Assembly (NCBI RefSeq): GCF_000189635.1
Contig: NW_002476405.1
Location: 186,001 to 250,000, forward strand
Direction: 5' to 3'
Source: Tetrahymena thermophila SB210
Taxonomy: Eukaryota > Ciliophora > Oligohymenophorea > Hymenostomatida > Tetrahymenidae
DNA: 64,000 bases
In this document: positions 1 through 53,006 of the stretch, one piece after another
Numbering within the stretch: the first letter of the stretch is position 1
Layout of the letters: every line of letters begins with the position of its first letter
Translations under genes and position numbers: made by a program
Notes under the pieces: model-generated
What the model was told of the DNA's origin: nothing
What the model saw: only the letters and a program-made list of their open reading frames with translations
Databases searched by the model: none

Positions 1-662
1 TATTAAATTAAATAAATTATAAAAGAATAGAATTTCTATTATGTCTTTTATAAATTAATTTATTTTTAAAAATAAAATGATTTTGATAAATTAAAGTAGT
101 CAAGCAAGAAAACACTTTTATAAAGAAAAAATCATCCTTGATTAAATCAAATTTCAAATATTCTAAAAAGGAGCCTTAATTAATCTTTCAAGCTAAAACA
201 AAAAATTCCTAAATTTTAGTTTGCTGTCATTTTACTTTGTTCAAAATAATGTTTTACTGAATAATTTATTGCTAAAAATCTAATCTAGTATTATCATTTA
301 TTATATTTATAATCAAAAATATCATGGAATTTAAAAAAAAATATTTATTACAATTTCGCTAGATAGATGAATAGCTTTGAATTTAAATCTTGATCTCTCA
401 AATAATAATTTAAAAATGATATTGATCTATATCTAAATAAATAATATACATAGTAAATAAAATATAATCTTATTTTTTATTCATGATATATTTTTATTTT
501 AAAAATTTGAATTCCTTGAAAAAAATAATTATTGTCACTCTATTTTTAGGAATCAATATATTTTATTATTTTTATAAGTTAAAGGAAAAATAAAAGAAAC
601 AATATGAATAATGCAATTAAAATTGTGACTGTGAGTAAAATACTTACTGATTCTCAGATTTA
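1..662. other. AT-rich intergenic DNA, no gene seen
   Basis: No frame with ciliate-like codon use or a recognisable domain was found on either strand. The region does not resemble the 3' flank found after the helicase genes, so the left edge of the tandem array lies at its right end, near 660. Confidence 0.6.
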
Positions 663-1330
663 CCATAAATGCCATAGCAGTTTTATTAATTAAGGAGAAA
701 AATATTAAAAAATACACTATAATAATTTGGAAAATCATCAAATTTCTATGAAAATTTATTACAAACACATTTATTGATAATGACTTAAATAGTAATTATC
801 ATATATTTTCTAATGTTAGTTTATAGTTTCTATGAGACCTAAATAGTATTCAGTATTAATAATTCATAATCTTTTTAATTTTTTTCTGCTGTTTTATTTA
901 ATCTTCAATGACACTTAATTTATGTAGTTAATTTTATTGTTGGATAGTCAGTGATAAAAAATATTTTTTAGTTTTCTACATTTTAACACAGTTTATTTTC
1001 TTTGCAATATTTTTTATTTAATCTTAATAAAAGAGAGAGAGTTTTTGTTTTAAAAAATACCAAATATTTATGGAGATATTGAATTTAAGATGAGAGCAAG
1101 CAAATAATACTTTATAGTTTCGTTAACTAAGAAGTACATCCTTGTGATATTATTTTTTTGTTTGTTATATTACCCAATCATATGTTCAATTTTCACTTGT
1201 ATCAGTTTTGCAATAAATGGTTTTTACCTTTTGTATTTTAGATTTTTTAAAGATAAAATAATTACTATCATAAAGATGTTTTAAGTTTTTTTTTTTAACT
1301 ATTCTCAACTATATCTTTTACCATAAAATT
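663..1330 (+). pseudogene. broken 3' fragment of the Cys-rich multipass membrane protein gene, copy A
   Basis: The segment aligns with the membrane-spanning C-terminal part of the intact gene at 12506-16370, roughly from that gene's base 15445 to 16075. In copy A the frame breaks: an in-frame TGA occurs around 890, and the alignment shifts frame near 1300. The N-terminal signal peptide, all Cys-rich repeats and the extreme C-terminus are absent. A piece starting at ATG 1091 remains open and still reads as hydrophobic segments, but it lacks what a functional protein would need. This is a relic carried along with the tandem unit. Confidence 0.8.
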
Positions 1331-1383
1331 CACAAAGACTCTTAATAAATAAGGAAATATCATTGTTGAATTCGTTGAAAGGG

Positions 1384-1690
1384 TACTTTGTTTATAAAAA
1401 TTTGGAGCGAATTTGAAAAATTTTAATTTTGTCAGATTTAAACTTCTAATCATCAGAAAATAAAATGTCACCTTCAACAATTAGAAAATATTTATTGATT
1501 TAATTTATACTGAATGAGATAAAACTCTTTTTAGTACTTTGTTTATAATATAATTTGGAACGAATTTGAAAATTTTGAATTTTGTCAGATTAAAACATCT
1601 TATCATCAGAAAAATTAAATGTCACCTTCAACAATTAGAAAATATTTATTGATTTAATTTATACTGACTGAGATAAAACTCTTTTAATAC
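1384..1690 (+). repeat. two tandem copies of a ~151-bp repeat upstream of helicase A
   Basis: The string TTTGGAGCGAATTTGAAAA recurs with small changes 153 bp later, followed in both copies by the same block containing CACCTTCAACAATTAGAAAA. The repeat fills most of the gap between the broken membrane gene and the helicase start. It has no convincing reading frame. The same doubling is present in unit B, so it predates the A/B duplication. Whether it has a promoter role cannot be seen from sequence alone. Confidence 0.85.
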
Positions 1691-1920
1691 AATAAAAACT
1701 TTTATTTTGTATTATTTATATTCAAGTAGTTGCTAAATGTATTGTTTTAATTAAATTAAGCAAATTAAATTGTACCTTTAAATTTAGAATAGATTTGATG
1801 CATTTTTTAATAATTAATTTTAAGCTGATTAAATAATAATTATAAAGAGAGAGTAAAAGAATAACAAAATACTTAACTTAATCAGATAGAATAAAATAGT
1901 AATATCTCAAATTCTTTGAA

Positions 1921-4900
1921 ATGGAAATAGAAAAATAATCAAATCTAAATTCTAATAAGAAGGCTGAGTTCAGATTGACAGATGAACAACTAAAATTCAT
2001 TTTGGCTCCTAAAAACAGGGATATCAAGGTTACTGCTTGTGCTGGATCAGGAAAGACAGAATGTGCGCTTTAATTCATCAAGAGTGCTATTGACGAAGGA
2101 TAAGACCCTAGAAGTATAAGTATAACAACTTTCAACATTTAAGCTAGTGTTGATATGAAAAAAAGAGCAATACAATTAATGGGAAAAGAAAATGCTAACA
2201 AAATTGAAATAATTAATTTTGATAAAATAATTTTCAAGCTTTATAAACAAATTAAAAAAATAAAAAGCGCCATTAATAATGAATTGATTAATAATAACAA
2301 AAATAATAAATAAGTAATAGACATTACTTTAGTTGAAAAGTAGTATGAAGTTTATCTCAATTTACAAGACTTGTCTTTTACTAAATACTTTTAAAGTAAG
2401 AAACTCGTTGTTTTTGATGAATTTTAAGATATTAATTAATTGCATTATGACATCTTAATGCTATTTAAAAAAGTTGGAAACTCAGTTCTAGTAGTCCTTG
2501 GTAAAAAATTTATTACTATTCAAATAATAAAATGTTTATATTTATTTTATAAAAATAGGAGATGAAGCTTAGAATATTTACGAATTTAGAGGATCAAATT
2601 TTAAATACTTGAATTAAATTGTTGAAGATGTAAACAGAGAAAATAAAAAAATTTATGGTAACGAGGATTACAACATGCTGGAATTCAAACTTACTACTAA
2701 TTTTAGATGCTCTTCTAAAATTACTGACTTTGCTAATGATATTATAAGATATTTTAATTTTAAGGATTTTAACTAAAATACTATGATCAGTTTTGAAGGT
2801 AAAGTTTATAAGTTTTATTATTTTTAATATAAAATCAAATTTATTAAATAAATAACTAAGATTTGAATTATGGAAAAGAAATTAAAAAATGTGATGTTAA
2901 ACCTAGTTTGATAGCCTATCCAAATTACAATAACTTAGTATAAGATATTATAATCTAAATCAATGTATTAATAAAAAACTATGGTTTTTCTTACAAAGAT
3001 TTTGCTATAATTTCTCCAACTACTTTTACTCTATATTAAGTAGAACTATTTTTGCAAAAGTATAATTATTTTGAACCTGAAACAGAAATTCCGTTTTGGA
3101 GTTTTATTGGAAAAAGTAAAGAATTTGGTTACAAATATGAGTATTAAGCAGATAAAATCATGATTTTGACAGGTCATAAATCTAAAGGATTGCAATGGAA
3201 AGTAGTATTTGAAGTTGGGATGGAAGATAATTTGTTTCCGCTTTCATTTTTAAGAAAGACCGAGCATGATCTTGATGAGTTCAATAAAGTAGAAGAATTA
3301 AAGCGCTTGTTTTATGTTATGTCTACAAGAACTTCTTAATTTCTTTACATAAGCTATATATCTCATAATAATAATGATTAATTAAATGTATTTTAAATTT
3401 ACAATAAAATTATTATTAAATCTATCTATCTATTTTTTTTAAGTATCAAGCATGTAGATTTTTGAATGCAATAGACAAAAATAAAATAAATATAATTGGT
3501 TAAGCTAGAATTTATCCTGACACAAAAGATAGCATTTACATAAATGAATAATAACTTTAATCACTCTATTTGCTATTTGAAGTAATGGTTAACATTTAAC
3601 ATATCAATGAGCTGCACTATTCATAGAGATACATCTAACCAGAATACATTTCAATAGAAAAATAAACACAATTACACAAAAGATTATTCTCAAAATAATA
3701 CATCGAATAAATCTATTTCAATTAATCAGAAGAGATATTGTTTACTTATTTTGAAGTGTAATTTTAATTATTTTATTTTTATCACAAAAATTTACCCCCC
3801 TCTCATTATTGAAATAAATAGCAGTTAAATACTTCAAAATTCTTTGCTATGATAATTTTAATTTTAAAATTAAACATCCTCTTATTATAAAATAAATAAA
3901 CTTTCATCTTTTTTTTAATTTTGTCTTTTAAATGAAATCCTTTCCATCCTAAGTTTAAAAGGGCAGGGTTTGATAATACCTAAATAATTTTCTCCTTTTA
4001 ATCTAATATAAATGGGTCTCTTTTGTGAATCCCCTCCCCTGAAAGTTGAGATTGTGATTTTTTGAAGTTGAAAAAAATAATAATAAAAAAACTTACAAAA
4101 TAATTTTGGCAATTATAAATGTTTTAAGGTTTACCCTTCAACTTATTTGGTAAATGCAAAAATCAAATTTTTTTATTATAAATTTAGTACGAGAGTTATT
4201 ATTAATAATTTTAAAATACTTTAAATTGAATAAATAAGTAAAATATGAAGATGATATTGAAATTTATTTTTAAATTAAATTAGGATTATTTTTAGAATTT
4301 TGATAGAGAAAACTTAAATGAATTTTAATAAAAACATACTTCAATATTCATTACTGAATTTAAAAAAAAAATAAAATAAATATCAACTTACCAATTAATT
4401 TATAAAAACATTTGAATTAGCTTTAGATTAATTCCTTGATAAAGATTTAAAAATAAATAGTAACAAATTCTAAATTTAATCACTTTATAAGGTATCCTGT
4501 TTGTATCAATCATTTAAATCTAGAAATATGATTTACAGATGTTTTTTATGTAAGAATCCATTTTATTCCATGACAAAGGTGATAATTAAAAATTTAGAAT
4601 TATTTGTAGACTATATATTGAGATAAAATAATGGTTAATTGTTAGTACTTGATAGTATTGAGTATAATAAACAGTAAGCAAAAATTTTTGATATGTTTTT
4701 AATTTCAACAGAAGACACTATTTTTGAGATCAATCAGTCATTTAAAAAAAACTAGACAATAGAAAAACAAAACTTTCTAAAAGTAAATATTTCAATCTTC
4801 ATTTTATTTAATAATTTTTTATTTTATTTAGGTTTTAAGTAAAGTTGCTATTCTTAAATTAAAATATGGCAGAGATATCAAAAAAATTGAGTTCTATAAC

Positions 4901-5431
4901 CCTATCAAAGGAACTATTTTACAAATCTATCTTTAAAATTGGACATTTCATAAGGATATTATCAATTTTATATTTTAATTTTAATCTAAACTAAAAGACT
5001 CCGATTAAAATATATCTTAAGATATTTAAACTTAAAATTGCACATAATAGACATTATAAACAGTTCTTGTTGATTAAGGAGATATTTCTTAAACCTTAGG
5101 AAATTCTTTAAAAATTTAAGAAAAAACTTTGAAAAGCTAAAAAGATAATTTAAATATTAAAGAAGAGAACTCATCAGAAATCTTAAGAATATCCCAATAA
5201 TATCAAAATTAATTAATTAACTAACTAAAATAATAATCTTCATAATCTAGTTTTGAAGATAAAATGAATTTTGATGCTCATATGACAAAATAAAATTAAA
5301 ACTTACACATTGAAAATGCCAAAACCAGCAACAAATAACAAATTCTTATAAACTCTAAAAAAAATTAAAAGAGTTATGATTCTTAATAAATAGATGAGAA
5401 AAATAATAAATTTCTAAATAAATTAATATGA
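1921..5431 (+). CDS. UvrD/Rep-like superfamily 1A helicase, copy A
   Basis: I traced six exons (1921-2500, 2559-2798, 2861-3387, 3444-3757, 4296-4782, 4832-5431) giving 915 residues. SF1A motifs appear in order: Walker A ACAGSGKT (about 39-46), DEFQD (about 165-169), GDEAQNIYEFRGS (193-205), LTTNFRCSS, GHKSKGLQW (about 378-386) and KRLFYVMSTRT (421-431). The family couples ATP hydrolysis to 3'-5' strand unwinding in repair and recombination. Residues 450-915 are a C-terminal extension I do not recognise. It contains KNPFYSM and GRDIKKIEFYNP, both conserved in copies B and C, and ends in a Gln/Asn/Ser-rich tail. Intron 4 is unusually long (538 bp). Exon-length differences from copy B are all multiples of three, so both copies look selected. 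The substrate in vivo is unknown. Confidence 0.9.
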
Positions 5432-5910
5432 AAAATGAAAAAAATATCTAGATGCTTTTATAATGCTTCTTTTTTTATTTTTAATTAGTAAAAAATAAAT
5501 AATATATTACAATTTTGTTGCTCTTTATGTCTTTATGTATTAATGTAGTATTATTTTTTTTAATTGTTTTTACTAATTTTATTTATTAACTTCATTTTTG
5601 ATTGATTTTTATAAATTATTTTTTTCTTATTCTTATTTGAAAGAGGAAGTCTTAAAAAATCTAAATTCTAATTGAGCTTTTTATGAAATAGTTTATAAAT
5701 AAAAAAAGAGGAGTTATTCTGAAATTATTAGGAATTCAATTTAAATACCGTATTACCTTTTCACTTGGTTCTCTTTTTGATATTTTTAAGATATTTTTGA
5801 TGATATTTAAAAAATAAATTCAATAATATTTCCAGCTTATGGGAAAATAGAAGTTTAAAGTAGACTATATTATATAATAAAAATTTTTTTTTTTTTTTTA
5901 ATATTATATC
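5432..5910 (+). other. helicase 3' flank, AT-rich, duplicated sequence
   Basis: This non-coding stretch follows helicase A. Related sequence follows helicase B (10650-10850) and, tellingly, also lies upstream of helicase C (about 16777-17130), including a GAGGAG-containing block. No gene was found in it. It ends in a long T-run just before the copy B membrane-gene relic. Confidence 0.7.
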
Positions 5911-6545
5911 ATAAATGCGAAAGCAGTTTTATTAATTAAGGAGAAAAATATTAAAAAAACACTATAATAATTTGGAATATCATCAAATTTCTATTAAAAT
6001 TTATTACTAGTACATTTATTGATAACGATTTCGATAGTAATTATCATATATTTTCTAATGTTTAGAGTTTCTATAAGAGGAAAAAAGTATTCAGTATTGA
6101 TAATTCATACTCTTTTTAATTTTTTTATACTGTTTTATTTAATCTTCAAAAACTGTTAGTTTATTTTGTAAATTTTATTGTTGGATTTTAACACAGGTTA
6201 TTTTCTTTGCAATTTTGTTTTATTTAATCTTAATAAAAGAGAGAGAGTTTTTGTTTTAAAAAATACTAAATATTTATAGAGATATTGAATTTAAGATGAG
6301 AGGAAGCAAATGATACTTTATTGTTTTGTTAACTAAAAAGTACACCCTTTGTGATATTGTTTCATTTTTTGTTCTATTACCCTATTGTATGTGTAATTTT
6401 CACTTGTATCAGTTTTGCAATAAATGGTTTTTAACTTTTGTATTTTAGATTTTTTTATAATAAAATAATTACTATCATAAAGATATATATTTTAAGAATT
6501 TATAATTTCAACACTATTCTCAATCATATCTTATACCATATAATT
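5911..6545 (+). pseudogene. broken 3' fragment of the Cys-rich multipass membrane protein gene, copy B
   Basis: This is the unit B counterpart of the relic at 663-1330, homologous to the C-terminal membrane region of the gene at 12506-16370. It is more decayed than copy A. Among other breaks, codon 6 after the conserved ATG (6296) is TGA at 6311-6313 where the intact gene has TCA. No product is expected. Confidence 0.8.
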
Positions 6546-6602
6546 CACAAAGATTCTTAATAAATAAGGAAATATAGTTGTTGATTGAATTCGTTGAAAT
6601 GG

Positions 6603-6905
6603 TACTTTGTTTTTAATAATTTGGAGCGAATTTAAAAAATTTAAATTTTGTCAGATAAAAACATCTAATCATGAGAAAATGAAATGCCACCTTCAACAAT
6701 TAGAAAATATTTATTGATTTAATTTATACTGATTGAGGAGATAAAGATCTTTTTATTATTTTTTTTATAATTTGGAGCGAATTTGAAAATTTTGAATTTT
6801 GTCAGATTAAAACATCTTAATCATCAGTAAAATAAATGTCACCTTCAACAATTAGAAAATATGTACTGATTTATTTTGCACTTAATGAGATAAAACACTT
6901 TTAAA
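6603..6905 (+). repeat. two tandem copies of a ~151-bp repeat upstream of helicase B
   Basis: TTGGAGCGAATTT starts at 6621 and again at 6772, exactly 151 bp apart, and each is followed by the CACCTTCAACAATTAGAAAA block. It matches the doubling upstream of helicase A. Confidence 0.85.
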
Positions 6906-7131
6906 ATAATAAAAACTTTTATTTTTGTATTATTTATATTCAAGTAGTTGCTAAAAGTACTACTTTAATTAGATTAAGCAAATTAAATCATACCTTTAAA
7001 TTACGATTAGATTGTTCTAATAATTGATTTTAAGATGATTAAATAGTAAAATATAAAGAGATAGTAAAAGAATAACAAAATACTTAATTTAATCAGATAG
7101 AATAAAATAGTAATATCTCAAATTCTTTGAA

Positions 7132-10100
7132 ATGCAAATAGAAAAATAAGCAATTCTAAATTCTAATAAAAAGGCTGAGTTCAGTTTGACAGATGAACAA
7201 CTAAAATTCATTTTGGCTCCTAAAAACAGGGATATCAAGGTTACTGCTTGTGCTGGATCAGGAAAGACAGAATGTGCGCTTTAATTCATAAAGAGTGCTA
7301 TTGACGAAGGATAAGACCCTAGAAATATATGCATAACAACTTTCAACATTTAAGCCAGTGTTGATATGAAAAAAAGAGCAATTCAGCTATTGGGAAAAAA
7401 AAATGCTAACAAAATTGAAATAATTAATTTTGATAAAATAATTTTCAAGCTTTATAAACAAATTAAAAAAATAAAAAGCAACATTAATAATGAATTTATT
7501 AATAATAACAAAAATAATTATTAGAAATAAGTAATAGACATTACTTTAGTTGAAAAGTAGTTTGAAGTTTATATCAATTTACAAGACTTGTCTTTTACTA
7601 AATATTTTTAAAGTAAAAAGCTTGTTGTTTTTGATGAATTTTAAGATATTAATTAATTGCATTATGACATCTTAATGCTATTTAAAAAAGTTGGAAACTC
7701 AGTTCTAGTAGTCCTTGGTAAAAAATTTATTACTATTCAAATAATAAAATGGTTATATTTATTTAATAAAAATAGGAGATGAAGCTTAGAATATTTACGA
7801 ATTTAGAGGATCAAATTTTAAATACTTGAATTAAATTGTTGAAGATGTAAACAGAGAAAATAAAAAAATTTACAGTAACGAGGATTACAACATGCTGGAA
7901 TTCAAACTTACTACTAATTTTAGATGCTCTTCTAAAATTACTGACTTTGCTAATGATATTATAAGATATTTTAAGACTATTAAGTCAAATAATATGATCA
8001 GTTTTGAAGGTAAATTTTACTAGTCTTATTATTTTTAATATAAAATCAAATTTTTTAAATAAATAACTAAGATTTGAATTCTGGTAAAGAAATTAAAAAA
8101 TGCGATATTAAACCTAGTTTGATAGCCTATCCAAAACCTTTTAACTTAGTATAAGATATTATAATCTAAATCAGAGAATTAATAAAAAATAATAGCTTTT
8201 CTTACAAAGATTTTGCTATAATTTCCCCAACTACCTTTACTCTTTTTTAAGTAGAACTTTTCTTACAAAGGCATAATTATTTTGAACCTGAAACAGAAAT
8301 TCCATTTTGGAGTTTTATAGGAAAAAGTAGAGATTTTGGTTACAAATATGAATATCAAGCAGATAAAATTATGATTTTGACAGGTCATAAATCAAAAGGA
8401 TTGCAATGGAAGGTAGTATTTGAAGTTGGGATGGAAGATAATTTGTTTCCGCTTTCATTTACAAGAAAGGTTGAAGATGGTCAAGATTATTTGAATAAAG
8501 TAGAAGAATCAAAGCGCTTATTTTATGTTATGTCTACAAGGGCTTCTTAATTTCTTTACATAAGCTATATATCTCATAATAATAAAGATTAATTATAGGT
8601 ATTTTAAATTTACAATGATATTATTATTAAATCTATCTATTTATTTTTTTAAGTATTATGCATGTAGATTTTTGAATGCGATAGACAAAAATAAAATAAA
8701 TTTTATTGGTTACGCTGGAATTTAACCTGACATGGAAAATAGCACAAGCATTAATACATAAGAACTTTAATCCCTCTATTAGATATTCGAAGTATTGGTT
8801 AATATTAAACATATTGATGAGCTTTTCTAATCATAGAAATACATTTTACCAGAATATATTTCTATATAAAAATAAACCCAACTACACAAAAGATTATTCT
8901 CAAAAAAATACATTGAATAAATCTATTTCTATTAATCAGAAGAGATACTCTTTACTTATTTTGAAGTGTAATTTTAATTAATTATTTTATTTATATCACA
9001 AAAATTTACCTTCTATTTTTAGAATTATTTATCATAAAATACTTCAAAAAAGTTACTTTGCCATGATAATTCTAACTTTAAAATTAACAATCCTCCTTAT
9101 TATTAAATAAATCATCTTTCATCTTATTTTTTTTAATTTTGTCTACAAAGTTAAACCCTTTCCTTCCAAAAATTTGATAGGGTATGGAATGTGATTTTTT
9201 GAATTTGAAAAAAATATTAATAGTAAAAAGCTTACAAGATCATAGCTTTTGTATTTTAAACCATTCAATTTCTTTGGTAAATACAAATAGAAAAAGTATT
9301 AATAGTAAAAAGCTTACAAGATCATAACTTTTGTATTTTAAACCATTCAATTTGTTTGGTAAATACAAAAAGTAAAAATTTTTTAATTTAAATTTAGTAA
9401 TATGACTAATTTTAATAGATTTAAAACTAATTTTAAAATATTTTAAATTTAATGAGTAAGTAAAACATGAAGATATAATTTAAATTTCTTTTTAACTTTA
9501 AATTAGGATTATATTAAGAATTTTAATAGAGAAAACTTAAATAAATTTTAAATCAGACATACTTCGAGATTCATTATAGAAATTAAAATAAAAATAAAAT
9601 GAGTATCTACTTGCGAATTCATTTATCAAAACATTTGAATAATCTATAAATAAATTCCTTGATAAAGATTTATAAATAAAAAGTAACTAATTCTAGATTT
9701 AATGGCTTTATAAGGTATCCTGTTTGTATCAATTATTTAAATCTAGAAATATGATTTACAGATATTTTTTATCTAAGAATCCATTCTATTCCATGACATA
9801 GGTGATAATTAAAAACTTAGAATTGTTTGTAGATTATATAATGAAATAAAATCCTAGTTAATTGTTAGTACATGATATGATTAATTATAAAAAATAATTC
9901 AATATCTTTGATGAGTTTTTAATATCAACAGAAGACACTATTTACGAGATCAATCAGTCATTTAAAAAAAATAATACAATAGAAAAACAAAACTTTCTTA
10001 GAGTAAATATTTAAATCCTAATTTAATAATAATTTTTTATTTTATTTAGGTTTTAAGTAAAATTGCTATTCTTAAATTAAAATATGGCAGAGATATCAAA

Positions 10101-10649
10101 AAAATTGAGTTCTATAACCCTGTCTAAGGAACTATTTTATAAATTTATCTTTAAAATTGGACATTTCATTAGGATATTATCAATTTTATTTTTTAATTTA
10201 TACTTAAGCTCAATTGTTCTAGTTAAAATTTATCTCAAGATATTTAAAATTAAAATTGCTCTTAATAGGCACTATAAAAAGCTTTTGTTGATTAAGGAAT
10301 TATTTCTTAGACCTTAGGAAATGCTTTAAAAACAGAAGAAAAAGTTGTGAAAAACTAAAAAATTAATTCAAATGTAAAAGAAGATAATTCATCAACTATC
10401 TTAGGAGTATCACAACAATATCAAAATAAATTAATTTATTAATTTAAATAATAATTTTCATAACCTAGTGTTGAAGCTAAAATGAATTTAGATGCTCACA
10501 TAACATAATAAAATTAAAATTTACAAAAAGAAAATGCCAAAACTAGCAAAAAAGAACAATTTGTTAATAACTCCAATGAATATTAAAAGAATTATGATTC
10601 TTAATAAGTAGATGAGAAAAATAATAAATTTCTAAATAATTTAATATGA
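7132..10649 (+). CDS. UvrD/Rep-like superfamily 1A helicase, copy B
   Basis: Six exons (7132-7717, 7776-8009, 8072-8598, 8654-8967, 9519-10002, 10050-10649) give 914 residues, with the same splice positions as copy A. All SF1A motifs are intact: ACAGSGKT, DEFQD, GDEAQNIYEFRGS, LTTNFRCSS, GHKSKGLQW and KRLFYVMSTRA. Compared with copy A, exon lengths differ by +6, -6, 0, 0, -3 and 0 bases, while introns vary freely. That pattern indicates a working gene. Amino-acid differences concentrate in the glutamine-rich tail and around the exon 2-3 junction. Intron 4 (8968-9518, 551 bp) carries an 82-bp tandem duplication not present in copy A. A 3'-5' DNA helicase role is known for the family; the specific process is unknown. 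Confidence 0.9.
9215..9378 (+). repeat. 82-bp tandem duplication inside intron 4 of helicase B
   Basis: TATTAATAGTAAAAAGCTTA begins at 9215 and again at 9297. The following bases, including ATTTTAAACCATTCAATTT and TTTGGTAAATACAAA, repeat with few changes. Helicase A has a single, diverged copy in the same intron, so the duplication arose after the A/B split. Confidence 0.9.
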
Positions 10650-12505
10650 AAAATGAAAATATCTATATTTTTTTATATTTTTAATGAGTAAAAAATAAAT
10701 AATATAATACAATATTGCTACTCTTTATGTCTTTATGTATTAATGTCATGTCATTTAATTTAAATTTTTTACTAATTTTATTTATTTACTTCATTTTTTT
10801 GATTTCTATAAATTTTTTTTTTTTCATTCTTTTTTTATAATATTTGTAAAAAAATTTAAAAATCATAGATTGATATAAATTAAAAATAAATATTATTAAT
10901 TAATTATACGTTAAAGTAAAAGTAAGTAGGTATTTGGTTTATATATTGATTTAAATATCTTTTCTATTCAAAGAATTAAAAAATCTTAATCAGCCTTTTA
11001 ACTTTTAATATAATTTTCTCTCTGCTTGTTTGTGTATTTTTTTATTTAATTAACACAAATTTAACCTGATTCAAAAATAAGTATCAAATGAGAAAAAATA
11101 AATTCATAATTTATCATCTAATTAATCTACTTTTAAAATAAATACTTAATATTAATATGGAACTAATTATAAAATTTCAAAAATTTTATTTGTTTATGTA
11201 AAATGGAGCTTAAAATTATAAAGTTACTTTACAATTCTTAATAATAATAAAGTCTACTTTAACAAATTTACTATTTTACTGTGAATTTTGTTAGCACCAC
11301 AAATAATTAACTAGCTGTGTCCACTAATTAATTTGAAATTTTGTATTCATGTGTTAGAAAAAATTAACTAATTTAGATTAAATTTTTAGTAATCTTGGAA
11401 TTTAAAAAACTGAGGAAATTAATAAGCAATATTACACATATCTGTGTTGTAATTAACTAATATAGAGATTTTTAATATTGTAAATTAATAGTTATCATCC
11501 ATTGTTTTTTCCTTTACATAAATAATTAATTTCTTATTTCTAAAGCAATTTTAGAATACTTAATAAAAAAGTATCTTTCTATTAGATAATATACCATATT
11601 GAGTATTATTTTTAAGCCAAATATTGATAATAACTTTTTTATTGTCGAATTGATTTAAACAGATAAATCAGTAAAAACTTTAGACGCTTATTGGCCTTAA
11701 GTAATTTAGTATCTAAAGTACCTTATATTTGCTCTTTTATTATGAGTTTAGATTTCAGTAACTTAAATACCTATTATAAAATTGTATTTATAAAATATAT
11801 GACTGCAGTGTATTAAATTTCTAGAATAAATATAATAAGATTTTATAAAATACTTCAAATATCTTGTGAAAGAAAGAGTTATTAAATGTTAAGCATTTTA
11901 TTCATTAATATTTATACTTTTAGAAAAAACAATTAGTTATTTAACCTGATTATTAATTTCAGGTTTTCATAAATGTGCTTCTTGAAGTCGATGAATTGCG
12001 AATACTTAGTAAAATCTATAGCTTTATAGGAATTCAGGAATTTAATTAAAAATATCAAATATTAACTATTTATTAATAGTAAACCAGCCAAGAAAGATAC
12101 TAAATATTAATATGATATGACATGATATACTTTTATAAAAAAGTGATGCTAAAGTTAATTTTCAAGTATTTTTTATTATTGGTAAAAAAATATGTTTAAA
12201 TGTCAATTTCTTTTGGCGGAAAAAATTCTTTCAGTCTTTCATTTCTATATTATTTTCTAACTTAATAAATTAGGATAAAAATTTGTATTATATTGATTAT
12301 TGTAAAAGTAGTTTTTATCGTATTTTTTTATTTTATATTAGTGCAAAAATATAAATAATAAAGGTAATTATTATCCTTTATCTGTTTGTTTGTTTGCTTA
12401 CTTATTTTCAATTCTTTTGTTTTTGATTCTGTTTTAATTAATTTTCGTTTACCTTAGTAATTAAAAAAATTTTATATTAATTAAATTTTGTAAAAATAGA
12501 AACAG
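10650..12505. other. long AT-rich intergenic region
   Basis: The first ~200 bases are the helicase 3' flank. From about 10850 to 12505 I see no gene, RNA or repeat structure on either strand. It must contain the 5' region of the membrane-protein gene starting at 12506. Confidence 0.6.
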
Positions 12506-15500
12506 ATGATATTTCTTTTAATAGTTTTGAATCTTATTGCTTATACTTTGCAAGACAAAAATGTTTCATTGAGATCAAACGCAATTGTCCAAGTGACTAG
12601 CTCTAAACAGTAAAAATTATTCATTTTAAAATTAAATATTTAATAAACATCTAAATTTTTTAAATGATTCAAGAAATTAAAAAAATAATTATTTGATTGA
12701 AAATAACGAATATATTTTTTATAAAATAATTTTAATATTTTAATTTAAAATACATTAATGAAAAATTTTTAAGTAAAAATTAATAAATCCATGTTTGGAT
12801 CCTCCCCTACACTCGCAAATCCATAATATTTTTATGTTATTTTTAAATAAAAGGTAAACTAAAAGTAGAAAACTTGCTTCTCTTTGCAATTAAAATTGTA
12901 CTTGTGGTCCTGGATTTGCATATCCATAATGTGGTTATTGCCAAAATGGCTTAATTTATTATCCTACTAACAATACCTGTTAAAATTCTAATATCTGTAG
13001 AAGTACTCCTGGTATGTTAATAGACAATAATAACGGGTATATGTGTTGTATTAATAATTGCTAATAGTGTAATTATTATAATACTAGTGGTACCTAAACA
13101 TGTACATAATGTATTACAGGATATTAGTTAATAGGAAGTCTATGTTATCAGAATTGTCCATCAGGAACTTATAGGTACCCTGACTTAAGTTGCAAATCAT
13201 GTAATACTTCAAATAAATAATATATAGATGGTTAAAATTATTGTTAGTAATGTGACTCTTCTTGCTAGACTTGTAATGGATCTAGTTAAAATAATTGCTA
13301 AAGCTGTCCTTTTGGCACTAGTTTGTATCCAGATGGTTCATGTAAAATATGTAATTTAGATAATAAATAATACCTTGATTCATCTTAAATCTGCTAAAAC
13401 TGTAATTCGTCTTGTTAAACTTGTGATGGATCTAGCCAAAACCAATGCTTATCATGCCCTTCTGGTACTAATTTGTATCCAGATAGAAGTTGTAAATTTT
13501 GCGATTTAACAAATAAGTAGTTTTTGGATACTCATCATATCTGTTAATCTTGTGATAGCTCTTGTTAGTAATGTAGTGGTCCCAGCTCTATTTAATGTAT
13601 AAGTTGTCCTTCAGGAACTAATTTATTTCCAGATAATAGTTGCAGATTTTGCGATAAAGCAAATAAAAAATATTTAGATAGTTCAAATGTTTGTAGGGAT
13701 TGTGATTAAACTTGTTAAACATGCAGTGGACCTACTACTACTTAATGCTTAACCTGCACTTCAGGGACTAATTTTTATCCAGACAAAACTTGTAGATTTT
13801 GTGATATAGCAAATAAATAATACTTAGATAGCTCAAATATATGTTAATAATGTGATGTTACTTGTTAAACATGCAATGGATCTGCTCCGACTTCATGTTT
13901 AACATGTCCAAATGGAACATCACTTTATCCAGATCGCTCTTGTAAAGTATGTAATACAAGCAATAAATAATATATTGACTCATAATAATCTTGTTAGTAC
14001 TGTGATAGCAGTTGTTAAACTTGTGATGGATCATCTCCTGATAATTGTTTATCTTGCCCTTCAGGATATTTTAAATAAGGAAACAAATGCATATAATGTA
14101 ATGCTGCTTGTAAAGAATGCATTGGTACAAGTGATTAAGATTGTATAGAATGCAATTAATTATATTTTTAATTTGATAAAAACACTAAGATTTGTTAGAA
14201 ATGTCCAAACGATTAATATCTCAAATATTCTAACTAATCCTGTTCTAATTGTGATTATCAGTGTATTCCTTGCAATTCTATACCTTTAACTTTTAGCATG
14301 TTTTAAATAGATTCAAATTTATCTTCAAGCTAAGATTATTGCTTAGTTTGTAGTTGTAAATAATGCTTAAGTGGGTATGTAAAATTTAATGACCAGTAGT
14401 GTATAGCTAGTTGTGATGAAATAGGCAGCAATTATCAATACGATTCTTCCACAAATAGTTGCTAATGTTAGCCTGGATATAATTATTAAGTTAAAAACCC
14501 TATCAAAAATAATTTTGACTGTGCTCAAGGGTATGGTTAAGGATATTATTGCAACGATTCAAATAAATGCTTTTAGTGTAGTTAGAATTGTAGCCAATGT
14601 TCTGACATCTAAACTTGTTAGAAATGTGGCAAAGGGTTTTATCTATGGAAAAATAATTGCTATTCAAGCTGTTTTCCAGATTTAAATATTGTACCTAATG
14701 AAAATTCTGGAGAATGCGAGTGCACTTAAGGGTATTTTTTGCAAAAACTTTCAACTCCAATCTAAAATTAATTTGATTCTTGTTAACTTGTTTTAGCTTT
14801 GTAAGAAATACAAATTCACAATAAATTAATGGAGAGCTAAGATTAAACTCTTTCATCAAACTTTTATGATAACTTGATTGTGTTTTAATATAATCGTGAG
14901 CTAACCAAGGAAGAGTATCAATCATTTTAATTTTAGATAGATGATGAAATTTTAAATTAAGGCTCAGATTTTTAAATTATAAGCACTAGTTAATAAATGT
15001 AAAATATTTTGTGCACTGTTAGATCTGCACAAAATAGAAAAATAAAATAATTGAGAATATAATTATTAAATTCTATTTAAAACTACTAAATTTAAAACAC
15101 AATTCTTGTTTCTAATGAATATTCAAAGTAATCTTCTGATGCTTTATCATCTAAATAAATATCATAATCCTTTGAATCTATGAGTTAAACTTTCTCAGGA
15201 GACTAAAACAGCGCTACAGGAAAAACTATTTCTTTTCTCAAACAATTCTAAGTTCTATGCTATATTTCAAATTTTGTTTAGATTTTACCTTTGATATATC
15301 TAATTAGAGATAAATTACCTGATAAAATAAAATTTTCCTCTTTATTTGGAGTTTCAATAATATTTAATAAGACACCTCCACCTTCATAAATAACAATATC
15401 TTCTTTAGAAATATCTACAAATGATTACACTGAATAACTAAAAAATACACTATAATAATTTGGGATATCATCTAATTTCTATGAAAATTTCTTACAAGCA

Positions 15501-16370
15501 CATTTACTGATAACAATTTCAATAGTAATTATCGTATATTTTCTAATATTTAGAGTTTGTATGAGAGGAAAATAGTATTCGATATTGGTAATTCATACTC
15601 TTTTTAATTTTTTATGCGGCTTTGTCTAATCTTCAATAACAGCTAGTTTATTTTGTTAATTTTATTGTTGGATAGTCAGTGATAAGAAATATTTTTTAGT
15701 ATTCTACATTTTAACACAGATTGTTTTCTTTGCATTATTGTTTTATTTAATCTTAACAAAAGAGGGAGAGTTTTTGTTTTAAAAAATACCAAATATTTAT
15801 GGAGATATTGAATTTACTATGAGAGGAAGTAAATCATACTTGATAATTTCATTAATTAAGAAGTACACTCTTGTAATGTTGTTTCTTAGTTTGTTTAAAA
15901 ACCCAATGGTATGTGCAATTTTCGCTTGTATTAGTTTTGCAATAAATGGCTTTTACCTTTTGTATTTTAGATTTTTTAAAAATAAAATAATTACTATTAT
16001 AAAGATATTTTAAGAATTTATAATTTCAACACTATTCGCAACCATATCTTATACCATAAAATTTACAGAGGATGAGCTTAGCTAGGATACAATTTCAAAT
16101 GAAATTATTTAATAATCAGAATATTTAGGAAGTGCTATTATGATAATATCAATTGTCTGCTTATTTATTAGCTCCTTAATTTATTTTATTAGATTAGGAT
16201 ATTTTTTTATATCTTCAATTAAACTATATAAATAAAATAAAAAAATCAAATAATAAAAATAAATTGAATTAGAAAATCTTTTAAGCCCTATCAATCAAAC
16301 ATCATTTTAATTAAGTTTAGATCCTGAAATAATAAAAAGATAATCAAAATGTGCTCTTATTAATGAATGA
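12506..16370 (+). CDS. Cys-rich (furin-like repeat) multipass membrane protein, intact parent of the two relics
   Basis: A small first exon (12506-12609) encodes a signal peptide (MIFLLIVLNLIAYTL). One intron (12610-12853) follows, and then a single exon runs to TGA at 16368-16370, giving 1206 residues. Residues about 45-690 are CxxC-rich repeats of about 50 residues with recurring CPSGTNLYPD and CxxCxxxCxTC patterns, typical of the furin-like/growth-factor-receptor Cys-rich families expanded in ciliates. Residues about 910-1155 hold seven or eight hydrophobic segments, followed by a Lys/Gln-rich tail. It is probably a surface or secretory-pathway membrane protein; ligand and role are unknown. 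Differences between this gene and the two relics around 15820-16010 fall mainly at third codon positions of this plus-strand frame, confirming the strand. Confidence 0.85.
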
Positions 16371-17191
16371 ATATTTTTAATAAAATTGATTGCATTTAAA
16401 TTTATTTTATCAAAATATCTTTATCAAATTAAAGAAAATAATAAAAATTATTTTCAATATTATGAATAATTATTTCAAAAATTTTAAGCAAATATTTAAT
16501 TAAAATAAGTATATAAAAAGATCAAAACAAACATTACCTTTTTTGTTGTTTAAAATTAAAATAAAAAAAATATTTAGTACTTAAGTTTAACAAAAAAAAC
16601 TATAACTTAAAATATTTTTGATATTTTCAGATGACTAAAATATTTTTAAATATTTAAATTAATATGTTTAGAGAACCATAATTTTTATTTTTTTCCAAAA
16701 TCAAATTAAAAAGATTGATTATTATTCTTAATTAGTAGATGAGAAAAATAATAAATTCTTAAAGAATTTAATATGAAAAATAAAAAAATACTTATATAAT
16801 ATTTCTTTTTTATTTTTAATAAGTAAATCATAAATAATATATATTTATGCCTTTACAGTTTTATGTGTTAATATTTTTAAAAAGTTGTTTTCTTATTTTA
16901 CAATTCAGTTTATTTATTTATTTGCTTCATCTGTTTGATTTCTATAAACTTTCATTCTTATTTGATAATATTTATAAAAAAGAGGGAGGTCTTTCAAAAC
17001 AAAAAGTCTAATTGAATTTTTTATCAAATTATTTAAAAACAAAAAAGGGGGAGGAGTCAATCTGATATGAAAGAATTATTGGGATTTTAAATTAAAATAT
17101 TACCTCCATTCATATTATATTGAATTATTTATAATTATAATAAATTACATTATATTTTGTTTCGGAAATAGAGGAAGAAAATAATATAAAT
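16371..17191 (+). other. intergenic spacer built from helicase 3'-end sequence
   Basis: The first ~330 bases hold nothing recognisable. From about 16700 the sequence resembles the end and 3' flank of helicases A and B, although the next gene downstream is the start of helicase C. The 5' region of helicase C is therefore derived from the 3' region of another helicase copy. Confidence 0.75.
16703..16776 (+). pseudogene. 3'-terminal scrap of a helicase gene
   Basis: The last 14 or so codons of helicases A and B (reading QVDEKNNKFL..LI then TGA) are recognisable here, as GTAGATGAGAAAAATAATAA and onward, ending in TGA at 16774-16776. Upstream of them the match fades within about 30 bases. It is a leftover of a helicase copy removed or truncated by recombination between tandem units. 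Confidence 0.8.
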
Positions 17192-20100
17192 ATGGAACTT
17201 GGTAATTAATAATAAAAGCATGGGTAGTAATAAAATAACATTTTAAAGTATACAAATGAGTAGCTAGAATTCATTCATGCTCCTAAAAACAGAGATATTA
17301 AGATAACTGCTTGTGCTGGTTCTGGAAAAACATAATGTGTGCTAGAGTTTACAAAGTAAGCATTAAAGGAGGGATTTAATCCTAAAGAAATTTGCATAAC
17401 AACTTTCAATATTTAAGCAAGCAATGATATGAAAAAAAGAGCTATTGAGTTGATGGGAAAATTTTAGGCTGATTAAATTGAAATCCTTAACTTTGATAAA
17501 ATAATAACAAAATTTTTTAAAATGATTTAAAAATCTAAAAGCTAAAAAGAATTGAACAAATAAAATTAGAAAGAAAATAAAAATTAACAATCGATTGAAC
17601 TGACTTTGGCTGAAAAATAATTTCAGCTATATCAAGACTTATAAGACGAATCTCTTAGCAAGCATATCTTCGAAAGCTATAAACTGATCATATTTGACGA
17701 ATTTTAAGATATCAACTAATTGCAGTATGAAATCTTAATGTTATTTAAGAGAATTGGAAAATCAATCATAGTCGTTGTTGGTATAAATAAAAATATTATT
17801 AAATTAATTAATTAATTAATTTTTTTGTGATTTTATAGGAGATGATCTTTAGAATATATATGAGTTTAGAGGATCAGATTATAAATTTTTAAAGTCCTAA
17901 ATTATTGAAGATATTAATAAAGAAAACAAAAAATTTTATGGAAATGAGAACTTCAACATGTTGGAATATAATCTTACAACTAACTTTAGATGCTCCTCGA
18001 AAATCACTGCTTTCGCAAATGATATAATTAGGTCATTCTAATATATTAATTAAAACCCAATGCAGAGTTTTGAAGGTAAAATTTAAAATAATTTTATATT
18101 TTAGAAATTGAATTAAATAATAAATATAAAGATTTGAAATGTTACTAGAATAAAAAATGTGATATAAAGCCAACTCTTGAACCATATAAAAGTTATAACG
18201 ATATGTTCAAAGACATTTACAATTTTATAACATCCAAAGTGTAAAACGAAGGCTTTTCTTACTCAGATATAGCAATAATAAGTGCAACAAGTTTTCCTTT
18301 AAGGTAAATAGAATTGAAATTAGAATAGCACAATTTTAACCAGCCTGAAAAAGAAATACCATTTTGGAGCTTCGTTGGCAAAAACAAAGATTTTGATTAC
18401 AGTTTTGAATATAAAGGTAATAAAGTCACTTTATTAACAGCTCATAAGTCGAAAGGGTTGGAATGGAAAGCTTTATTTTTCATTGGAATAAATGATGATT
18501 AATTTCCAGAGGTATTTATAAGATAAGTAGGAAACTACAATCAAAAAATTGAAGAGATGAGGCGTTTATTTTATGTTGGATCAACAAGAGCAGCTTAAAT
18601 TTTGAAATTGAGTTATTTTTCAAACAATAACAGAAAAGTAATAAAATAAATAAATACTATTTAATTTATCTATCTATTTATTTATTTATTTATCTATCTA
18701 TTTATTTATTAATTTTAAAATAATTTTAAGGCTTGTAGGTTTTTAGGTGCAATTGATAAAAATAATATTTAATTTAAAGGTTAAACTTAAATTGCTTAAG
18801 AAAAAAATACCACAAATGCTAATCAAAAATAACTGTTAGATAAATAAGTGAGAGAAATATTTGAAGAGATGTGTAATCCTTAGTATATTGTTTAACTTTA
18901 AAAAACTGAAAAGTTTCTTTAAGAAGAATAATTTTATTTAGAAGAAATTTAATACATTCACAAGCCTATGTTTTCAAGAAATTAAATCTAAAAAATATTT
19001 TTCAATTAATCTGAAGAAATCCTTTTTTCTTACATTGAAACGTAATTTTCTTATCCTATAATGAATTTTCTAATTTTTAAATAATTAATACTCAATTTAA
19101 CATTTTATCAATAAATCTAATAAAATATTATTTATAAATGAATTAAATAAATAATTGATATACTTAAATTTTATTTTAATACAAAATTTTTATATTTATT
19201 GCAAACAAAATATTTTCAATACGAATGAGTTTTTTTATTTTCTTTATATTAAAGTTTTTTAAAGTTAAGAATTAATTTTTGAATTTTATTAATAAATAGT
19301 ATCATTTTAAGAATTCTGTTAGAGAAGACCTAATTAGTTTACAAGCCTGTAATTGTTGAAGAATAATTATAATTACTAACTAAAAATAAATATTTATTAT
19401 AAGTAAATGATAATTTCATCAATTCTTATTAATAATCTAAAGATTAGTTTCTAAAAAAAGATTTTTCGATAAGTAAAAACAAAGAACTTATTTTATCAAT
19501 TTACAAAACTTCCATTTTATTTGAAATTTCTAAAAGTAAAGTTTACAAATATCTTTTCCAAAAGAATCCATTTTATTCGATGACAAATAATATAGTTTAA
19601 TGCTTGAATAGCTTTGTAGAATAAATATCGAATGAAGAAAAAAATGAATTATTTGTGGCTGATAGAATTTTGTATTCTAATGACCCCATTAACGTTTATG
19701 AAAACTTTATCATATCAAGCAAAGAAACTCTTTACGAAATAACTTATTCATTCAAAAAAACGAAGATAGTAGAAAAATAAGCTATGCTCAGTGTAATTAT
19801 TGTTTTTAATAACTTTTTTATTATATTTACTTTTATTTAGGTTTTAGGGAAAATCTCTATACTTAAAATGTAATATGGAAGAGATATCAAAAAAATTAAA
19901 TTCTATAACCCAGTAAAAGGAACAGTTTTTTCAGTCATCCTAAAAAATTGGATATTTCACAAATAATTTGTCAATTTTATGGAAGATTTTTTCTATAAGC
20001 CAACAATTTCTTAAGACAGCAGTTAAAATTTCTCTTAGAACAGCTAAAATTAAACACAATCTCAATCTCAAGAAAATACAGTCTATTGTCAACAATAAAA

Positions 20101-20323
20101 TGAGAATAACAAAGAAGAAAAAGAAATTTATCAAGAAAATAAAATGGTCTAAAATTCATCATAAACTCAGCAATAGGATTAAATGTTTTCTAAAATATCT
20201 TTCTCAAAAGTGTAACTAAATGATCTAGCAAATTAACTTCCTTTTACTAAAAAACAATAACTATTACATCCGCCTATGCAACTTTAGTAACAAAAAGAGG
20301 TCTAAAAAAAATTTAAAAAGTGA
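17192..20323 (+). CDS. UvrD/Rep-like superfamily 1A helicase, diverged copy C
   Basis: Six exons (17192-17780, 17839-18075, 18105-18637, 18731-19041, 19312-19792, 19841-20323) give 877 residues and use the same five intron positions as copies A and B. Motifs are intact: ACAGSGKT, DEFQD, GDDLQNIYEFRGS, LTTNFRCSS, AHKSKGLEW and RRLFYVGSTRA. Motifs V and VI are closer to the canonical UvrD consensus than in A and B. Intron 2 is only 29 bases and intron 4 is 270, half the length in A and B. The C-terminal extension keeps KNPFYSM and GRDIKKIKFYNP and ends in a Gln-rich tail (for example SQSQENTVYCQQQNENN). It is the oldest member of the local family and may be closest to the ancestral gene (inference). 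Confidence 0.9.
18661..18712 (+). repeat. simple (ATTT/ATCT)n tract in helicase C intron 3
   Basis: Tetranucleotide units ATTT and ATCT alternate through the middle of the intron between the motif VI exon and the C-terminal exons. Shorter ATCT runs sit in the same intron of copies A and B. It is ordinary microsatellite sequence. Confidence 0.8.
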
Positions 20324-50631: not shown

Positions 50632-53006
50632 ATGAAATACCTAACAATAATAACCATATTTATATCTTTCTTCAAGGCATTTGCTAATAATTACCTCAGT
50701 AAAAATATTACTCTTATTAAAAAAAACCATACTTTTAGTGATTAAGCAAGTGCATGCCCTTAAAAAATAAAAAAATTAGAGTTTCCTGCTTCTACTTAAA
50801 ACATCTTCTAAATGAAAAATATATACCTTCAAGATGAATAGTTTGCAACAATAGTAGTCTATAGTTAAACATAACCAGTTTAGATCATTTTATGGGATCT
50901 TTAAAAAGTAAATTATTAAGTTGTAACATTATAAATCAATGGGTCACCTTTATTGAAAGCATCAGATATAATTGTTTATGACACTGATTTAAGACTACTG
51001 ATTTTGATAATATAAGCAGATACGTTTGTGGTCTTTTAAAGACCTTTAAACACATTTTAATTCAACTTAGTCTAAGTAGTTAATATACCTAATTATTCAT
51101 CATCGATGACTCCTTTAATTACTGATATGTTTATAATAAAGGGATTGAATCAGCTTGTTATATTAGACTTCAATAACTTTAATCTTTTATTTTATGATCT
51201 TATTAGTTTTACAGGAGTTCCAGTTAAAGTTATAACAATTGGTATTCCAAATGAGGTTACTCCTGTATAATCTGCATTTTATGCAAGAAATATTCCTAAT
51301 ACAAATTATATTGCTTTGGTTGACTTTAGTTATGCATTAATTAGAGTCATTAATTACAAAACTAAAGAAATAGTTTTTACATCGAATGATAATATATCAA
51401 ACAGACCTTTGAATTATTCAATCCTAGGCGTTTATGCGAAAGATTCCCTCGTTATTTTTTACAATGATCACTATAATTCTTTGAACCTCAAATAAAGATA
51501 ATCCAACTTCCAGGTCTTCTCAGTGGATTAAAATCTTTAATTAATTAGTTAATTTTATGTAAAAATATTTTAAATTATTTCTATTCAGCAAAATTATTTT
51601 AAAAATACTTTGTTTAAGATTTTCTTTTCTTTTACTTTAAAAGGTAGTTTGTTAGAAGAAAAAATTTAATTTTTCTCTAACTTGATTTACTGAAAAATTT
51701 AACAAAAATTTAAAGATTAAATTTTTCAACTAAAAATTAAAGACATACGCATTTACTGTATAATTCAACTAAAATTGATTTTTTTAAATTATTTTTTTAA
51801 TAAGTTATTTTAAAATAAACATTTTCTAAAAATGAAAAAATATTTTTATAAACTTTTTTTAATTATTTATGTATTTTCATTATATAAAAATAGATAGACA
51901 ATCCTCAACCTCTTCAAAATTAACTAAAATCGATGTATATTTTATAAAACACTCCTCATGTTGTAACAACCCATAATTTAGGTGATGTATATATTTTCAG
52001 CCTTTATTCTGGTGAGTAGATAAGACACTATAAATTCGATAACTATACAACTTATGATGCTTAGTACCTTTAAGATTATTTAATGTTTTCTTCTTTTGAT
52101 AGAGATAAAAATTTAATCATCAGCTATTTTTTAGAATGGGACCAAGTTCTTTATCCTCAAGACAGAGATACCTCCACATAGGGAGTATGCGTAAGTTAAT
52201 GTGGAGATAAACAAGGCTACAATTAAGATTTACTTGCTTGTAGTACATGTGACCCAACTCTAAATTGTAAAACTTGTAGATTTCCTTCTGGTTATTGCGA
52301 CTAGTGCTATGAAGAGTTTTATCTTTCTTAGGGGTAGTGCTTGCCCTATTGCAAAGGAGAAACAGGATGTAATAAATAAATATAAAATTTCTAAAATTAG
52401 TTTCAATACTTAAAATTTTTGTAAAAGAAATATTCCTTTAACACAGGAAAAATCATCACCCATTAAAATCTTACCAGTGTTATATAAAAATTAACTATAT
52501 TCTTTTATTATATATATCATGTTTAAACTCAAGAAAATATTATTATTATTTCAAAAAAAGCTGCGACATTAGATAGCGATGGTAAATGCTAGTGTACTCA
52601 AGGGTATTATATGATTCATAACGATATATGCATCCCAAATCCTTGCAAGTAATGGGAATAGCCATAATATAATTATGAGTATTAATAAACTAGCTGTATA
52701 GATATTTGCGAAGAAGACTTATACTATGATATTGAAAATAAAGAATGTAGCTGTATATCAGGATATATTAAAATAGGTAGCTCTTGTAAATTAGATGTAA
52801 CAGGCATCTGTTTAATCATAGTTTTTATAATTATCCTCACTATAGCAATATACAAATACAGATTATCTTTAATATTTTAAAAATCAAAGGTTTTCTTTGA
52901 AGTTGATAATATCTAACAAGGTATCAAACTTAAGAAGTTTTTTGAGAGTAATAGTTAAAAAGTTTAATCAAAAAAGAATAAATAAAAGCAAAAACTAGAA
53001 GTTTGA
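50632..53006 (+). CDS. secreted/single-pass Cys-rich surface protein
   Basis: Two exons (50632-51558, 51894-53006) give 679 residues. A signal peptide (MKYLTIITIFISFFKAFA) opens the protein. Residues about 30-400 are beta-rich, with repeated strands suggesting a propeller-like fold. They are followed by two CxxC-type Cys-rich patches (CSTCDPTLNCKTCRF near 425-440 and CKCQC-like motifs near 530-610). One transmembrane segment (GICLIIVFIIILTIAIY, about 610-627) and a basic tail close it, so this is a type I membrane protein. It shares layout and local sequence style with the next gene downstream, suggesting a duplicated family. Its ligand is unknown. Confidence 0.8.

Follow-up and report, generated by a model that had tools for sequence, protein, structure and literature searches.

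Three helicase genes in a tandem array

We analyzed a 64,000-nucleotide stretch of the genome of Tetrahymena thermophila SB210 (positions 186001 to 250000 of contig NW_002476405.1, here C140), which we refer to as the window and which contains three genes for UvrD-like helicases (H1, H2, and H3) in a local array with a gene for a cysteine-rich membrane protein. The genome consists of 101 Mb in 445 contigs. The reading frames of the window follow the ciliate code (i.e., TAA and TAG specify glutamine), and CCCCAA/GGGGTT repeats were found at 6 of 16 contig ends from eight contigs (both ends of C405 and C341 and one end each of C123 and C134). With such contig ends and this code, the assembly looks like a macronuclear genome of the Tetrahymena type.

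All three helicase genes lie on the forward strand. Models with GT-AG introns, in which splicing was predicted from the sequence, placed H1 at 1921 to 5431 (919 amino acids [aa]; exons 1921-2500, 2559-2798, 2861-3387, 3444-3757, 4284-4782, and 4832-5431), H2 at 7132 to 10649 (918 aa; exons 7132-7717, 7776-8009, 8072-8598, 8654-8967, 9507-10002, and 10050-10649), and H3 at 17192 to 20323 (872 aa; exons 17192-17780, 17839-18075, 18132-18637, 18731-19041, 19300-19792, and 19841-20323). Intron places match among the three genes, each of which has six exons and neither stops nor frameshifts. At the protein level, H1 and H2 share 82.4% identity over 916 aa, and H3 is ~51% identical to either.

In H1, a UvrD core, whose motif I lies at aa 42 and motif VI at aa 421, is followed by a nuclease-like domain devoid of catalytic residues (~aa 616 to 772) and a glutamine-rich tail. 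Pfam assigned UvrD-helicase (68.8 bits; cut-off, 23) and UvrD_C (51.9 bits; cut-off, 25.6) to this protein, the latter in two pieces with the best match at profile positions 284 to 349. Motifs IV and V are ~138 residues apart (241 to 379), and the 2B-type insertion in domain 2A of H1 looks short, as judged from this spacing and the profile match.

The ratio of nonsynonymous to synonymous substitution rates (dN/dS) between H1 and H2 was 0.457 (bootstrap range, 0.359 to 0.593), indicating that the helicases are under constraint. An earlier model-generated reading of the same DNA from its letters (the sequence-only reading) had proposed that the helicase is what is kept in the array, and the constraint and the undisabled models of H1 to H3 agree with it. 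By part, the H1/H2 value rose from 0.336 in the core through 0.456 (linker) and 0.491 (C-terminal domain) to 0.666 (tail), and the intervals overlap. For H1/H3, an overall ratio of 0.307 was obtained (core, 0.196; C-terminal domain, 0.655); these are rough values, as overall dS exceeded 1.

A duplicated unit within the array

Self-BLASTN of the window revealed a direct duplication in which positions 661 to 5638 (unit 1) and 5907 to 10835 (unit 2), both on the forward strand, are 85.7% identical over 5,042 columns. Each unit contains, in the same order, a fragment of the membrane-protein gene, a spacer, a helicase gene (H1 or H2), and a 3′ flank. Identity between the units was 95.9% in exon 1, 96.6% in exon 2, 85 to 90% in exons 3 to 6, 89.8% in the membrane-gene fragment, and 72.0% in the long intron 4. 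The exons of H1 and H2 contain 6, 6, 0, 0, 3, and 0 indel columns, every one of these numbers being a multiple of three; the alignment of the two membrane-gene fragments has 51 gap columns. Exons 1 and 2 (96 to 97%) are closer between the units than exons 4 to 6 (85 to 87%), a pattern suggestive of homogenization of the 5′ part by gene conversion. Both units also carry paired direct repeats of ~150 bp between the membrane-gene fragment and the helicase start (1383 to 1685, where the two repeats are 92.1% identical, and 6602 to 6902), and intron 4 of H2 holds a tandem 87-bp repeat (94% identical; 9209 to 9377), with no such pair listed in H1.

H3 is an older copy, with 69.0% DNA identity to H1 (17252 to 18793 with 1978 to 3512). 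Upstream of it, a helicase scrap on the forward strand (16703 to 17096) is 71.5% identical to positions 5362 to 5745, i.e., to the end of the last exon of H1 and the H1 3′ flank; part of the scrap (16709 to 16981) is 74.8% identical to 10585 to 10853. Because the scrap consists of the end of a helicase last exon and its flank, one helicase copy has evidently also been lost. The inventory given in the sequence-only reading (i.e., three helicases, a membrane-protein gene in one intact and two broken copies, and one helicase scrap within 20 kb) was thus right. No further helicase match was detected in the 20 kb upstream (L009 and L010, which include one 100-N gap), and no H1 match lay beyond H3 in the window among the matches listed.

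The window contains no N, and 14% divergence between units whose exon indels are multiples of three is unlike collapsed or mis-joined reads. This argues against an assembly artefact in which the units would be alleles, collapsed copies, or mis-joins, an outcome for which the sequence-only reading had left room. Such an artefact might be suspected from the contig itself, since neither end of C140 is telomeric (both ends were read) and a 100-N gap lies at C140:179856, 6 kb upstream of the window; similar clusters are present on other contigs, however, including C123 and C134, both of which are telomeric at one end, and we regard this explanation as extremely unlikely.

The membrane-protein gene as a probable local passenger

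The intact membrane-protein gene is an open reading frame (ORF) of 1,202 aa from stop to stop on the forward strand (12762 to 16370, which is the span of the ORF and not a fixed 5′ gene end). It encodes Cys-rich repeats followed by several hydrophobic segments, with weak Pfam matches to VSP and Furin-like_2, both under the cut-off. The truncated fragments, also on the forward strand, lie at 706 to 1337 in unit 1 (~residues 893 to 1103 of 1,202; 86.2% identical to 15439 to 16070 of the intact gene) and at 5953 to 6552 in unit 2 (82.2% identical to the intact gene from 15441). In a frameshift-tolerant alignment, the former contained 5 frameshifts and the latter 3 frameshifts and 1 stop. Both fragments span approximately residues 891 to 1103, and because these limits are nearly identical in the two units, a single truncation before the duplication of the unit is indicated. 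The membrane gene had been thought to decay separately in each unit; instead, one truncated fragment was copied. The accompanying idea that the helicase was kept while the membrane gene was lost holds for H1 to H3, which are constrained, and fails for the copy reduced to a scrap.

We rejected a linked working unit of membrane protein and helicase. No match to the membrane protein was obtained at E ≤ 1e-3, with the low-complexity filter on or off, in 20 stretches (L009 to L028) covering the other helicase loci and the upstream region, and the same search recovered both window fragments. Five of these stretches surround weak matches from outside the helicase family, and the one beside C193 (L012) contains 4,316 N in 8,001 positions. 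A genome-wide search with the membrane protein missed both window fragments and is therefore no test of absence. Because the membrane gene was not found in the stretches read at the other seven helicase loci, its linkage looks like local hitch-hiking; by these comparisons, the clustering appears to belong to the helicase family, with the membrane gene as a passenger at one locus. Relatives of the membrane protein occur in large arrays at C81:547489-622681 and C156:235133-318465.

A helicase family with repeated local clustering

Searches of all six frames, for which the profiles PF00580 and PF13361 and the protein sequence of H1 served as queries, followed by spliced alignment identified at least 14 UvrD-family genes at eight loci (C140, three genes; C193; C123, two; C300, two; C405; C134, three; C341; and C111); these counts are lower bounds. 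Tandem clusters were present at four of the eight loci, with longest-block identities in self-comparison of 92 to 97% (C123), 79 to 83% (C300), 80 to 83% (C134), and 86% (C140). The expectation that this helicase clade is expanded was thereby confirmed. Helicase motifs I to VI were found in all 14 aligned genes, except that motif IV of C123a falls in a run of N and is unreadable. The C300a/b and C123a/b pairs each include one model with a frameshift (an alternative C300a model has none, and C123a has the run of N). Since models of the remote paralogues vary with the query, we assert intactness for H1 to H3 only.

Weak matches on C174, C327, C65, and C184 were assigned to other helicases and are not counted among the 14. 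We take C174 and C327 to be TRANK1-like by motif, C65 to be UPF1-like, and C184 to be SETX-like. The C174 and C327 proteins (L025 to L027) are large members of what is presumably another UvrD-related group, and C327 seems to hold two of them.

Local clusters had been considered unusual for such helicases, a view at odds with the report that species-specific genes of Tetrahymena are often tandem duplicates (PMC6564038). The seven main domains listed there for such genes include P-loop NTPase and cysteine-rich GFR, and the word helicase is absent from the main text of that article. We conclude that the array is real and constrained and, considered purely as an array, not exceptional for Tetrahymena.

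The helicase could also be cargo or a remnant of a mobile element, with the unit spread as an element and not by crossing-over. Helicases occur in such elements, the membrane gene is present only as fragments in two units, and the family is found at eight loci. Against this, all inter-unit repeats above 60 bits in the self-BLASTN were direct and none inverted (no search was targeted at terminal repeats or target-site duplications), the Pfam scan of H1 returned helicase domains and no integrase or transposase, and H1, H2, and H3 have introns in the same places. Clustering is local at the other loci too, where the searches found no membrane gene. A mobile origin is accordingly very improbable.

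A C-terminal domain of probable nuclease descent

The protein alignment revealed a domain after the helicase core that is common to all 14 genes and that the sequence-only reading, otherwise partly supported as an account of the array, had missed. In C405 it reads GEIDLLADDTIYEIKAS then ILQVLAYA, and in C134c it reads GEIDFIADDTIFEIKSS then IIQCLAYA. The nuclease motif residues D, E, and K were all present in these two genes only (2 of 14), as was the complete set of GxxD, ExK, and QxxxY. Across the 14 genes, D was kept in 8, E in 9, and K in 3 (including C341, which lacks E), and QxxxY was whole in 5. The remaining 12 genes, H1 to H3 among them, retain the helicase motifs but are missing at least one of D, E, and K. 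H1, H2, and H3 have L, L, and I at the D position, N, N, and T at K, K, R, and S at Q, and K at Y, with E kept. In the models, Cys residues after the motif numbered 0 in C405, 3 (far apart) in C134c, and 1, 2, and 1 in H1, H2, and H3.

Profile scans were run on 13 domains (C123a was left out). Scanned on its own, the C405 domain matched TIGR00372 cas4 (E = 2.6e-6) and phrog_1706, annotated as "CRISPR/Cas system associated" (2.1e-6), and a second domain matched phrog_1706 at 1.8e-6. The C134c domain matched cas4 at 8.6e-4. Further matches of the C405 domain were to Pfam Cas_Cas4 (0.0013) and PDDEXK_1 (0.023), and two domains matched a RecE-like exonuclease (best, 0.0058). In total, cas4 was matched by two of the 13 domains, Cas_Cas4 by three, and phrog_1706 by two. 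From these matches and the motif pattern, the domain in C405 and C134c is likely of the Cas4/RecB type, i.e., a nuclease by descent. If that descent holds, H1 to H3 have very likely lost catalysis, because other residues stand at the D and K positions and at the Q and Y of QxxxY.

Taken as a whole, the window would hold tandem UvrD helicases of nuclease-family descent, with H1 to H3 retained as motors carrying a dead nuclease domain, and we consider this reading probable. A competing explanation is neutral birth and death, in which the array is an ordinary tandem array of general-repair, UvrD/Srs2-like motors and the C terminus is just a diverged tail. The frequency of tandem duplication among species-specific genes of the genus (PMC6564038) and the presence of clusters of differing age at four of the eight family loci are in keeping with it, as is the origin of the nuclease evidence in two relatives with few strong matches.

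Several results weigh against nuclease descent with constrained motors. For C134a/b, dN/dS was 0.84 (0.67 to 1.1), near neutral unlike that of H1/H2, and not every copy is clearly constrained; this near-neutral ratio also favors neutral birth and death. The faster change of the C-terminal domain than of the core in H1/H2 (0.491 versus 0.336) was not significant, as the intervals overlap. All Pfam and NCBIfam nuclease matches were under the curated cut-offs, and chance-looking matches in the same scans reached E values of 0.0016 and 0.0019 (PHROGs) and 0.009 and 0.015 (NCBIfam). Because of this chance level, only the matches near 2e-6 carry weight, and those to Cas_Cas4, PDDEXK_1, and the RecE-like exonuclease, and even that of C134c to cas4, add little. 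The whole-protein Pfam scan of C405 listed no nuclease family, and a profile (A2) searched against PDB matched no solved structure up to E = 10. Scanned by itself, the C terminus of H1 matched no NCBIfam model, so its nuclease descent rests on the alignment to C405 and C134c. In hidden Markov model (HMM)-HMM comparisons with comparison material in five parts, C405 plus C134c gave P = 0.032 (2 of 100 column shuffles scored as high), all 13 domains gave P = 0.051, and the other 11 alone gave P = 0.25, in other columns. Against the four fusion nuclease domains described below, the motif columns aligned with a weak score, which we do not rely on. An AlphaFold model of the H3 C terminus (window positions 19301 to 20035, with H1 and H2 exon pieces) failed, with a mean predicted local distance difference test (pLDDT) score of 41.6.

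Two observations speak against neutral birth and death. For H1/H2, dN/dS is clearly under 1 across the full protein length and is 0.34 in the core, and the Cas4-type signature of C405 and C134c falls in a region that can be aligned across the family and reaches E values of ~2e-6 in two libraries. We therefore regard neutral birth and death as unlikely and prefer constrained motors with a nuclease-derived domain.

Relationship to known helicase-nucleases

For comparison, we used five helicase-nuclease fusion ORFs recognized by motifs rather than by a family scan, four from contigs of viral collections (L033, L034, L035, and L042) and one from a prokaryote (L115); L033 ends early at its contig end. 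In a midpoint-rooted tree of 23 rows (13 ciliate genes, with C123a left out, the five fusion ORFs, and five other prokaryotic or viral UvrD ORFs), the ciliate genes formed one clade (100/100) and the fusions a separate clade (100/100). H1, H2, H3, C193, and C123b grouped together (100/100), and the placement of C405, C134c, and C341 was not resolved. A quick tree of 64 rows recovered the same two main clades. If the ancestor had the nuclease residues, the window clade, the C134a/b-C300a/b clade, C341, and C111 would each have lost them; the least number of changes on the tree is two, and we do not press the number.

A recent transfer from bacteria or viruses was rejected, as no close source was found in the viral, prokaryote, or phage comparisons. 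Best-segment identities were 21 to 43% at 28 viral loci and 21 to 55% at 37 prokaryote loci; 90 of 50,697 phage records had a match, none at 80% query cover. As for the fusions themselves, L042 matched only itself when searched against the viral collection. A fusion search at E ≤ 1e-80 (three candidates scored per genome) gave a match in 1 of 299 genomes of one phylum, and UvrD-type matches were obtained in four genomes at 1e-20.

Bacterial and archaeal UvrD-Cas4-like fusions (pfam12705) are described as monophyletic and as lying mostly beside Type III restriction-modification genes (PMC5704561). Like C405 and C134c, they join a UvrD-type superfamily 1 (SF1) helicase to a Cas4/RecB-type nuclease domain in the same order of parts. 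They differ in having a C-terminal Cys cluster (Fe-S) in the four ORFs with a complete C terminus, with none in C405, and in tree position, and 12 of the 14 ciliate genes do not have the full set of D, E, and K. Membership of the ciliate genes in these fusions is thus not shown, given their own clade, the missing cysteines, and the mostly missing nuclease residues.

AddA and RecB, of bacterial AddAB and RecBCD, combine an SF1A motor with a C-terminal RecB-type nuclease. The NCBIfam recB (1.2e-18) and addA (3.2e-11) models matched C405 in the helicase part; UvrD, PcrA, and Rep models matched it better (7.7e-46 to 1.1e-25), however, and the recB model, at 1175 positions, is longer than the ciliate protein. 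With UvrD, PcrA, and Rep, the ciliate proteins share motifs I to VI and, in H1, Pfam UvrD-helicase and UvrD_C matches over the cut-off, but UvrD_C is matched in pieces only and the ciliate proteins have the extra C-terminal domain. C405 and Salmonella DNA helicase II share ~26% identity across the 40 to 43% that was matched. PADLOC models of a DRT-associated UvrD-like helicase (RTasHel, 2.3e-37) and of GajB of the Gabija system (9e-37) scored no better on C405 than generic UvrD models, and to our knowledge GajB has no such C-terminal domain. In DNA2, the nuclease comes first and the helicase is of the SF1B type, whereas in the ciliate proteins a UvrD-like helicase precedes the nuclease-like domain. 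The nuclease of DNA2, a eukaryotic helicase, is homologous to Cas4 (PMC5704561). We found no published account of a Tetrahymena UvrD-like helicase-nuclease in literature mostly outside subscription journals. From the alignments, what looks new is a ciliate helicase-nuclease family, most members of which, including H1 to H3, appear to be nuclease-dead.

Proposed origin and function of the array

The ancestral order may have been membrane gene then helicase. A 5-kb unit with the truncated membrane gene was copied head to tail, probably by unequal crossing-over in the germline nucleus, and a neighboring unit would have lost its helicase, leaving the intact membrane gene and the scrap beside the older H3. 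H1 to H3 are predicted to have lost cutting activity and to act as ATP-driven motors on single-stranded DNA; such movement is expected because motifs I to VI are intact wherever readable. In RecBCD-type machines, inactive domains hold DNA or a partner. The retained C-terminal domain would be expected to do likewise, perhaps with C405 or C134c, because it is kept without catalytic residues in H1 to H3.

Ciliates excise thousands of germline segments, and how DNA is resected or degraded afterwards is only partly understood. A use of the family in conjugation is suggested only by T. thermophila TTHERM_00829440, a "UvrD/REP helicase family protein" whose expression follows that of TWI1 (R = 0.93; PMC2636879, Table 5), TWI1 being the Argonaute of DNA elimination; this gene may or may not be one of the 14. 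A more far-reaching scenario, which we hold to be quite unlikely, is that the genes form an AddA/RecB-like family of ciliates' own, with an origin separate from the bacterial fusions, in which one or two cutters (C405, C134c) would work with motor-competent, nuclease-dead paralogs such as H1 to H3, in a RecBCD-like pairing of active and inactive domains, in DNA processing or degradation during conjugation and programmed genome rearrangement. If this were true, the tandem arrays would be a growing stock of pseudonuclease subunits. The two apparently active and twelve nuclease-dead members provide a gene list for knock-out tests in Tetrahymena, and with the catalytic domain lost and the motor kept, the role of pseudonuclease domains becomes testable.

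Other features of the window

Elsewhere in the window, the ORF at 33920 to 35803 contains an axonemal dynein light chain domain just above the Pfam cut-off (28 versus 26.4 bits). The ORF at 51468 to 53006 encodes another Cys-rich protein, with a weak Furin-like_2 match under the cut-off.

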